A stretch of 47,778 nt of DNA from a virus. The notes under the pieces were generated by a model. The model was not told the DNA's origin. It saw only the letters and a list, made by a program, of their open reading frames with translations, and searched no databases. Position numbers and translations under genes: made by a program. Shown piece by piece: positions 35,353-39,743 of this stretch (position 1 is its first letter; the number at the start of each line of letters is the position of its first letter). The stretch is taken from positions 1 through 47,778 of IMG/VR virus record IMGVR_UViG_3300007734_000706; one strand, written 5' to 3'.

Positions 35353-35681
35353 TGACCGCCCGCTGGCTCACCCCCGACGACTGCGCCGCCTACATCGGCG
35401 TGCGCGTCCACCAGCTACCCAAGTTGGTAAAGGCCGGGAAAGTGCCGGAACCATCCCGCCACCTTGGCCCGCGTTCCCCCAGGTGGGACCGGGACGAACT
35501 GGACAGGCTATTCGGGACTGCGGCACGGTCCAGCGGAAACAGGGAGGTGGTCAATGACGCGGTGCAGCAAATTCTTGCAGCCGGGCGTGCACGTCAGCCG
35601 AAAGCGCCTCGCGGACGGGTCAATCCGGGAATACCACTACCCGCGCAATCGGCCCCGGTCGTCCCGCTACGGCGCGGATAG
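35352..35681 (+). CDS. excisionase-like helix-turn-helix protein
   Basis: 109 residues from ATG 35352 (TGATG overlap). ARWLTPDDCAAYIGVRVHQL then PKLVKAGKVPEPSRHLGPRS resembles the MerR/AlpA-type winged helix of phage excisionases, with RWDRDELDRLFG closing the domain. The C-terminal 50 residues are basic. It overlaps the integrase gene by 128 nt, a layout known for xis/int pairs. Confidence 0.75.
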   Translation: MTARWLTPDDCAAYIGVRVHQLPKLVKAGKVPEPSRHLGPRSPRWDRDELDRLFGTAARSSGNREVVNDAVQQILAAGRARQPKAPRGRVNPGIPLPAQSAPVVPLRRG

Positions 35682-36531
35682 CGTGGCCGCGCTCATCAGC
35701 GCATGGAAGATCAGCCCCGAGTGGGCGGCGCTCTCCCCGATCACGGTCGGGGGCTACACGACATATCTCCGGGATTTGGAACTACTGGCCCGGATGAAAG
35801 CGGCAGACGTGACGCGGCGGGATATTCTGTCAGTCCGCGATGCCATCGCCAGCGCGCGGGGCAACGGCGCGGCTACCGGGTTCGTCCGAGCGGCGGGCGC
35901 CTGTTTTGCCTGGGGGGTAGAGCGGGGATGGGTGGATCATTCCCCATGCCACAAGATACGGCGCCTCAAAGGCGGGCACCTGCCGGAATGGTCCGAAGAA
36001 CAGATCGCCGTCGCCCTGGATCGGCTGCCCGACTACCTGCGCCGCGCGGTTCTTCTGGCGCTCTACACCGGCCAGAGGCGGGGCGACCTGTGCGCCATGA
36101 CCTGGGCAGCCTATGACGGCGCCACGGTGCGTCTGAGGCAGGGGAAGACGGGGAAGGCCATGGTGATACCCCTGCACCCTGTCTTGCGGGCCGAGATGGC
36201 GGTGTGGAAGAAGAATGCCACCAGCACCCACATCCTGACGACGCGGACGGGCGTGCCGTGGATACCGACGCACTTGTCCCAAGACCTTGGCCGCGCCCTG
36301 GTGGCGATCGGCTTCCCGCCCGGCTGGAACATCCACGGGCTACGGAAGGTGGCGGCGGCGCGGCTAGCCGATGCCGGTTGCACCGTCCACGAGATCGCCA
36401 GCATCACGGGGCACAGCAGCCTGGCGCTGGTGGCGCTCTACACCCGCCGCGCGGACCAAGAACGGCTCGCGAACGCGGCGATTGGGCGGCTTGGTGGAAC
36501 GGGCGGGGGAAGTGGTGGAAAATCGACGTAA
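35554..36531 (+). CDS. int: tyrosine-recombinase integrase
   Basis: 325 residues from ATG 35554, preceded by AGGGAGGT; longer in-frame starts belong to the excisionase overlap. N-terminal core-binding region, then catalytic residues Arg175 (YTGQRRGDL), Lys198 (QGKTGK), His261-x-x-Arg264 (HGLRK), His287 (TGHSS) and nucleophile Tyr296 (ALYTRR). Cuts and joins attP and attB. All six active-site residues are present, so it should be functional. Confidence 0.95.
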   Translation: MTRCSKFLQPGVHVSRKRLADGSIREYHYPRNRPRSSRYGADSVAALISAWKISPEWAALSPITVGGYTTYLRDLELLARMKAADVTRRDILSVRDAIASARGNGAATGFVRAAGACFAWGVERGWVDHSPCHKIRRLKGGHLPEWSEEQIAVALDRLPDYLRRAVLLALYTGQRRGDLCAMTWAAYDGATVRLRQGKTGKAMVIPLHPVLRAEMAVWKKNATSTHILTTRTGVPWIPTHLSQDLGRALVAIGFPPGWNIHGLRKVAAARLADAGCTVHEIASITGHSSLALVALYTRRADQERLANAAIGRLGGTGGGSGGKST

Positions 36532-38126: not shown

Positions 38127-38209
38127 CATTCCCCACCCCACCACAGCCCGAACGCCATCAGCGCGAGCACGCCCAGAAGCGTGATGCCGATGGCGCCGCC
38201 GCCGTTCAT
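38126..38209 (-). CDS. 27-residue membrane peptide after endolysin
   Basis: ATG 38209 overlaps the endolysin stop (ATGA). Almost the whole product is one hydrophobic span (AIGITLLGVLALMAFGLWW). Its place suggests a pinholin-like or lysis-timing peptide, or a fortuitous ORF. Confidence 0.5.
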   Translation of the reverse strand: MNGGGAIGITLLGVLALMAFGLWWGGE

Positions 38210-38739
38210 GTGCCGCGCATCCGATCCAGTTCGGCCTGATTGAGCCGGTCGGCATCGGACAGCACGGGCGTCACTTCCGGCTTGGGGGCTACGGGCGACG
38301 CCGTAGCGGGCACCCTCACCACCGCCTGCCAGGTCGCATCGCCGCCTGCCGGGAACACCCCGGCCCGCAGTTCCGCGATGTTCACCGGCCATTCAAGGTG
38401 CGGCATCTCGAAAGACAGCCCCCGCAACCCGTAGGTCTTGCCGAACGCCTGCATGTGGACCCAGGACTGTTGCGGCAGTTCCCACGTCCAGGCGCCGTTG
38501 ACGAACCCCACGATGTCCATTGCCAGGCCGTAGTTGTGCAGGCTCTCGCCCGCCCGCGCGTAGGTCACGATCCGGCCCGGCGCGGTCCTGCCTTGGGCAT
38601 AGAGTGCGGTTTGCCGCTCGGGGGAGCGGTAGCCCTCGAACAGGCGGAACGGCAGTCCCGCCCGCTCGCATGCTTCCAGCGTCTTGCGGGCCGCTTCTCG
38701 CACGAGCGGGTGCAGGTGCTGCGGGTCGCGGTCGATCAT
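38206..38739 (-). CDS. endolysin, M15 peptidase type
   Basis: 177 residues from ATG 38739 (TGATG overlap); a longer GTG start at 38766 is less likely. FEGYRSPERQTALYAQGR, then zinc ligands His68 and Asp75 in SLHNYGLAMDI, and His114 in FEMPHLEW define an M15C L-alanyl-D-glutamate endopeptidase-like fold. The 50-residue C-terminal tail is Pro-rich. It cuts the peptide stems of peptidoglycan at lysis. No signal sequence, so it needs a holin. Confidence 0.9.
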   Translation of the reverse strand: MIDRDPQHLHPLVREAARKTLEACERAGLPFRLFEGYRSPERQTALYAQGRTAPGRIVTYARAGESLHNYGLAMDIVGFVNGAWTWELPQQSWVHMQAFGKTYGLRGLSFEMPHLEWPVNIAELRAGVFPAGGDATWQAVVRVPATASPVAPKPEVTPVLSDADRLNQAELDRMRGT

Positions 38740-38984
38740 CAGGACGTAAGTTCCTTCACAATCCACATCACGGATTTTTCCAAGTCGGTGATGGCGAGCG
38801 AGGCATAACGGCCCGGCTTCACTTTGGCGTACAGCGCCTCCATTTCCGCCGCCTTATCCTTGATGGCATCATGCAGCGCCTTTTCGTCATCAGTCAGCGG
38901 GCGATACCGAGGCCGGAAGCGGCTGACGGGAATCGGTTCATCGGACTGACGCGCGTCAGTGGCGCTTTCGTAAACATTTGCCAT
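38739..38984 (-). CDS. candidate Acb2/Tad1-like anti-CBASS protein
   Basis: 81 residues. After a variable N-terminus, FRPRYRPLTDDEKALHDAIK, then AAEMEALYAKVKPGRYASLA and ITDLEKSVMWIVKELTS, fits the helical-hairpin pattern of Acb2 (R-x-L-T, A-I-K, R..SLA.T.LE..VMW..K). Acb2 forms hexamers that sequester cyclic di- and trinucleotides and related signals, blocking CBASS and Thoeris. The match is from memory of the pattern; length and residue layout fit well. It lies between the holin-side genes and endolysin, as such genes often do in temperate phages. Confidence 0.72.
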   Translation of the reverse strand: MANVYESATDARQSDEPIPVSRFRPRYRPLTDDEKALHDAIKDKAAEMEALYAKVKPGRYASLAITDLEKSVMWIVKELTS

Positions 38985-38987
38985 AAC

Positions 38988-39212
38988 CTAATTCCCCCGC
39001 GCCTCGTCCGCGTTTCGATCCAGCGCCGCCAGCTGCGCGTCCACCAGTGCCTTGAGCCGCATGGCCGCGTCGGGGTCCACCTTCCCCGTCTTCTCCGCGT
39101 CGGCGATGATGCCGCCGGCAGAACGCCACAGATCGGCCACGGACTTGCCGGCGTCGATTAGCTTCGGCGCCAGTTCCGCGACGAGCGAGACGATTGCAAT
39201 AACGCCGCCCAT
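38988..39212 (-). CDS. small protein of unknown function in the lysis region
   Basis: 74 residues from ATG 39212. A moderately hydrophobic N-terminal helix (MGGVIAIVSLVAELAPKLID) then a charged helix (DAEKTGKVDPDAAMRLKALV). It may be membrane-associated, perhaps a holin-like or antiholin-like factor. One base separates it from the lipoprotein gene. Confidence 0.6.
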   Translation of the reverse strand: MGGVIAIVSLVAELAPKLIDAGKSVADLWRSAGGIIADAEKTGKVDPDAAMRLKALVDAQLAALDRNADEARGN

Positions 39213-39213
39213 G

Positions 39214-39588
39214 TCAGTGCCCCCCCTTGGCCTTGGTGACGAACGCCTGAAACTGCTGAAGCAGGTTCGCCGGTTCGGCCAGCGCGGACCACTTCGCATC
39301 GGCCACGCCCACGGCACCAACCACAGCCTCCGCCCGGTCGATGGCATCGGCCACAGCATGCGCGGCCCGATCGCCCTGGATGACCACGGCGCGGTCAGCG
39401 CACAGCGGCGGCGCCTTGGCGTTGGGCTGGTCGCAGAACGGGCGCTGCGAGGCATAGACGTTGAACGCGGCGGCGGCGCTGCCCAGACCGGCGCGCAGTT
39501 CCACCACCGTTTGTTCCGGCGTCTTGGGCACCGGCACAGAGCCGCACGCTGCCAGCAGCACCGGCAGGGCGAGGATTGCGGCTCTCAT
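39214..39588 (-). CDS. lipoprotein of the lysis region
   Basis: 124 residues from ATG 39588 (ATGA overlap). Signal MRAAILALPVLLAACGS with a good lipobox (LLAAC, Cys15). The mature part is helical with a Cys pair (FCDQPNAKAPPLC). An outer-membrane spanin (o-spanin) role is possible by location, but it is longer than most o-spanins. Confidence 0.72.
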   Translation of the reverse strand: MRAAILALPVLLAACGSVPVPKTPEQTVVELRAGLGSAAAAFNVYASQRPFCDQPNAKAPPLCADRAVVIQGDRAAHAVADAIDRAEAVVGAVGVADAKWSALAEPANLLQQFQAFVTKAKGGH

Positions 39589-39743
39589 CGGCAGAACGCC
39601 GCAATGGCGCCTCCGATGGCAACCCCGGCCTGGGTGATCGCCTGCGCCTGTTCGGGCGCGAGCGTCAGGCCAACGAGGGACAGCAGCGCGAGGATGCCGC
39701 CATACGTGGACGGCTCGCGAAGGCGGTTGGTTAGCCAATCCAT
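39585..39743 (-). CDS. holin-like protein
   Basis: 52 residues from ATG 39743. MDWLTNRLREPSTYGGILAL, first hydrophobic span (ILALLSLVGLTLAP), then a second (AGVAIGGAIAAFC). The L-x-E-P-S-T-x-x-G start is typical of small phage holins of this kind. Probable holin that releases the endolysin. Confidence 0.72.
   Translation of the reverse strand: MDWLTNRLREPSTYGGILALLSLVGLTLAPEQAQAITQAGVAIGGAIAAFCR

Follow-up and report, generated by a model that had tools for sequence, protein, structure and literature searches.

The analyzed window, a virus contig of 47,778 nucleotides, encodes on its minus strand (38739..38984) an 81-residue protein that we consider, with a probability of about 0.85, to be an Acb2-type nucleotide sponge acting against CBASS. 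The open reading frame comprises 81 codons and occupies exactly positions 38984–38739, as the first-pass annotation had it, although no strand was given there. It starts with ATG, carries a G-rich stretch on the 5′ side of the start (gcgggggaattaggttATG), and is tightly packed on both sides: the stop codon of a small ORF that precedes it in the operon (38988..39212, minus strand; about 74 aa from its ATG) is followed by 3 bases and then by the acb2 ATG, and the acb2 stop codon shares one base with the ATG of the next gene (TGATG). Together with the relatives and the purifying selection described below, these features establish the frame as a real gene. The plus-strand frame at 38739–38984 is only an open part of longer ORFs and has no start codon there.

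The next gene (38206..38739, minus strand; 177 aa from the ATG at 38739) encodes an M15/VanY-type endolysin (PF02557, E = 1.8e-10; PHROG endolysins, E values down to 2e-18), and the earlier placement of the protein in a lysis region was therefore right. The small upstream ORF, searched as a longer ORF containing it, had no Pfam or PHROG match. Small minus-strand ORFs within 39214..39743 overlap one another and include a 52-aa hydrophobic protein (39585–39743; PHROG 8494, E = 7.8e-6) and an ORF within 39214–39738 that was read, by inspection only, as putatively lipoprotein-like. Between 39585 and 40160, small hydrophobic ORFs (52 and about 135 aa) resembled, again by inspection only, membrane proteins of a lysis cassette. 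From its position in this operon, acb2 would be expressed late, presumably together with the lysis genes, a timing that would fit late action of CBASS during infection. The contig also encodes terminase, head-tail adaptor and tail tubular-type proteins, RecT and exonuclease VIII, and an integrase gene lies at 35464–36531; because of this gene content, we infer a temperate, podovirus-like phage. Its hosts are probably soil alphaproteobacteria.

Profile search against Pfam revealed that residues 27–77 of the protein match PF24729 (Acb2_Tad1_hairpin) with E = 1.7e-15 and 57.4 bits, twice the curated cut-off of 27 bits, in agreement with the Acb2/Tad1 family assignment that had been proposed. The same profile matched all 34 of the 34 aligned relatives as well as T4 Vs.4 (T4 Acb2; E = 7e-20), and gave zero matches in 14 control genomes. 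The protein had no match in PADLOC or NCBIfam, its PHROG matches were two unnamed families only, and a search of plasmid records for relatives returned none. Direct sequence search of the PDB gave an insignificant alignment with solved Acb2 chains (E ~0.6), which nonetheless paired the expected residues. Comparison of the window clade with the T4 clade by hhalign reached a probability of only 14%, with aligned region and residues as expected; this low value is probably due to the shallowness of both alignments (Neff 1.7 and 2.5) and to the difference in hairpin length.

We aligned the window clade with PaP2-type Acb2 (93 aa, locus L135), another homologue from Pseudomonas, and T4 Vs.4 with its relatives. 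Only Y27, K42 and M73 were invariant across all of these groups, and the residue pattern ascribed to the protein from its sequence was borne out: Y27, which pairs with T4 Y8 and PaP2 Y11, and K42, which pairs with T4 K23 and PaP2 K26, are the Tyr and Lys expected at the cyclic-dinucleotide site, and both are invariant in the clade. We take this Lys to be a cyclic-dinucleotide site residue in T4 and PaP2 Acb2, and PaP2 R67, which pairs with R59 in the PGR(Y/W) motif of the window protein, to be part of the cyclic-trinucleotide site. The substitution Y8A in T4 Acb2 has been described as disrupting cyclic-dinucleotide binding, and F82 of the same protein stacks on the dinucleotide ligand (PMC12657218). 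The position of F82 is occupied by Thr80 in the window protein; PaP2-type Acb2 is likewise without an aromatic residue there, so that its absence is not a defining loss.

AlphaFold2 prediction from the alignment yielded a helical hairpin with helices at residues 32–52 and 59–80 (mean pLDDT 80.6). Block pLDDT in the helices was mostly 85–94, and two long antiparallel helices per protomer are thus predicted, whereas the N-terminal 26 residues of the monomer model, in the part where Acb2 proteins have a short helix, were modelled as coil (pLDDT 44–74), with no strand of three or more residues and no Tad1-type beta domain. Foldseek comparison with the PDB placed Acb2, T4 Vs.4 or CbTad1 chains at all of ranks 1–17 among 101 matches. 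Each match was weak on its own (best match: E 0.28, probability 0.98, TM 0.58); such values are to be expected from a protein this short, with two helices. Whole-chain TM was 0.58 to Acb2 and at most 0.36 to Tad1.

The length of the protein fits Acb2 only roughly, since studied Acb2 proteins comprise 88–94 residues and have a hairpin about 20 residues longer, whereas the 81-residue window protein has the longer N-terminus. The span from Y27 to W74 is 47 residues, compared with 68 from Y8 to W76 in T4, and 26 residues precede the hairpin in the clade, with invariant D10, R12, Q13, F23 and R24, compared with about 7–10 in T4 and PaP2. The best fold match, Acb2 of the Pseudomonas phages PaP2 and PaMx41 (PDB 8h2j, 8h2x, 8ixz), shares the PF24729-type hairpin, the aligned Tyr11/Lys26/Arg67 and the PGR motif, but comprises 93–94 aa, its hairpin is longer, and its Tyr is preceded by about 10 residues; the window protein ends in K-E-L-T-S and lacks the C-terminal tail of PaP2-type Acb2. 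T4 Acb2 (PDB 7uq2) has PF24729, Tyr8/Lys23 and a helix-2 MW motif in common with the window protein, and differs from it in the ligand-stacking F82 and in lacking an Arg where the window protein has Arg59. Sinorhizobium phage Aussie (WPJ67960.1), Dunaliella viridis virus SI2 (AGH16001.1) and podovirus ctCJ8213 (UOF81279.1) encode proteins that are 35–41% identical over the full length, belong to the same Pfam family, and have an equally short hairpin and a D-x-R in the N-terminal extension; however, their extension is about 5 residues shorter and without the FRP motif, and they are annotated as hypothetical proteins only. A distant relative (L040:6886–7215) carries a 29-residue insertion exactly in the inter-helix loop of the hairpin and still matches PF24729 (E = 3.7e-8).

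Relatives are encoded in at least 118 viral contigs, of which the best 80 were kept; those listed are 45–81% identical to the window protein, and product identity across unrelated phages is about 70–80%. Comparison of the window gene with 30 others gave a median pN/pS of about 0.24 at a pS of 0.70, and over all 31 distinct sequences pN/pS was about 0.25, synonymous sites being near saturation; the gene is under purifying selection. The genes around the relatives differ at almost every locus (primase, terminase, tail and many unknowns), and each of 13 other window genes tested occurred in at most 5 of 93 loci. A constant association with lysis genes was accordingly rejected as a pattern. Its recurrence in phages that have almost nothing else in common is the behavior of a mobile accessory gene, with strong selection acting on it, and flanks this varied would be expected for an accessory gene of counter-defence. 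Relatives are also encoded in six alphaproteobacterial genomes (Bradyrhizobium centrolobii, Phenylobacterium, a Caulobacteraceae MAG, Acetobacter sacchari, Siccirubricoccus soli and a Rhodospirillaceae MAG), consistent with the alphaproteobacterial host originally suggested. In a sample of 385 genomes drawn from across this class, PF24729 matched above its cut-off in six.

Three of the six carrier genomes named above also contained a CD-NTase with CBASS-type partners (loci L131, L132 and L133). The cyclase was accompanied by a 4TM effector, plus a weak match to E1-E2, in B. centrolobii, by HORMA with an adjoining RmrA/CapP-like gene in the Caulobacteraceae MAG, and by a neighboring SAVED-HNH endonuclease in A. 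sacchari. By comparison, a SMODS match above the cut-off was found in 14 of the 384 other alphaproteobacterial genomes (Fisher p ~0.001). This association supports the sponge reading only mildly, because it covers a small sample of six genomes unmatched for genome size or assembly quality; moreover, acb2 may act in a host other than that of the prophage.

We weighed two other readings of the gene against an Acb2-type sponge. The first-pass annotation had coupled the CBASS role, which the Acb2-type reading supports, with a possible role against Thoeris, and a Tad1-like sponge, binding gcADPR for the most part and so blocking Thoeris, could draw on several of the same results: PF24729 spans the hairpins of both Acb2 and Tad1, CbTad1 chains appeared among the top fold matches, a ThsB-type TIR was present in one of the six host genomes, and the conserved N-terminal extension could form part of a pocket. 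In Tad1, however, an N-terminal four-stranded sheet precedes the hairpin, and conserved loops, together with the helices, form the pocket for gcADPR (PMC12043709). Tad1 of the Clostridium botulinum prophage (PDB 7uav, 8smd, 8kbe) shares with the window protein the name of the hairpin model and a partial hairpin fold match, whereas the N-terminal beta domain that it contributes to the gcADPR pocket has no predicted counterpart in the 26 strandless residues before the window hairpin. Because no such domain is predicted, inhibition of Thoeris appears less likely than a CBASS role, and that part of the original proposal is weakened. The whole-chain fold match to Acb2 rather than Tad1, and the three hosts with a CD-NTase against the single one with a ThsB TIR, argue in the same direction, and we regard a primarily Thoeris-blocking sponge as unlikely.

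Less probable still, in our judgment, is a hairpin relative without nucleotide binding that now serves as a lysis or virion accessory protein. The place of the gene inside a lysis operon, overlapping the endolysin start, would fit such a function, as would the position of the Sinorhizobium phage Aussie relative among head-tail genes. Yet relatives adjoin many unrelated functions, from primase and terminase to tail genes and others, and there is thus no constant link to lysis or virion genes; in Pseudomonas, a few genes separate a homologue of PaP2-type Acb2 from a tape-measure gene downstream of it, so that gene position by itself says little, and the invariance of the ligand-site Tyr and Lys argues against loss of nucleotide binding. 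A Pseudomonas phage homologue of PaP2-type Acb2 (MK511064.1, 24011–24286; locus L136) is annotated as an 'NAD/FAD-utilizing enzyme', probably a misannotation.

For the Acb2-type sponge, the following mode of action can be proposed. The predicted helical hairpins would, by homology, assemble as a hexamer, in which Tyr27 and Lys42 would bind cyclic dinucleotides between protomers and Arg59, the counterpart of PaP2 R67, may aid the binding of cyclic trinucleotides. When the phage infects a cell or a prophage is induced, the sponge would keep CBASS second messengers from their effectors, and cell death before lysis would thereby be avoided. It is conceivable, though rather doubtful, that the alphaproteobacterial clade constitutes a distinct Acb2 subfamily, in which the N-terminal extension with its D10, R12, Q13, F23 and R24 packs over the ligand site, offsets the lost C-terminal stacking residue of T4 and alters ligand preference.

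The Acb2 family itself, whose members sequester the cyclic-nucleotide alarm signals through which bacteria kill their infected cells, is already known: a review counted it in 239 tailed-phage genomes, including phages of Escherichia, Klebsiella, Pseudomonas, Vibrio and others (PMC12043709), and putative Acb2 has been described in Microbacterium phages (PMC13348362). Our literature search, with subscription papers mostly outside its scope, found no paper on alphaproteobacterial Acb2. What is new is this member, whose clade has an N-terminal extension peculiar to it; the member is real, and largely expected. With it, a counter-defence family studied mainly in gammaproteobacterial phages now reaches a large group of alphaproteobacterial phages and prophages, an indication that the phages of this class are under real pressure from CBASS-type signalling. 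The clade, conserved yet unlike the studied Acb2 proteins, should be useful for testing how specificity changes among sponges. The record of Dunaliella viridis virus SI2 (HQ332136.1, locus L042), which is filed under a green alga and encodes an Acb2-type protein, looks like a bacterial phage, and one of its phage structural proteins shares 27% identity with one from the window.
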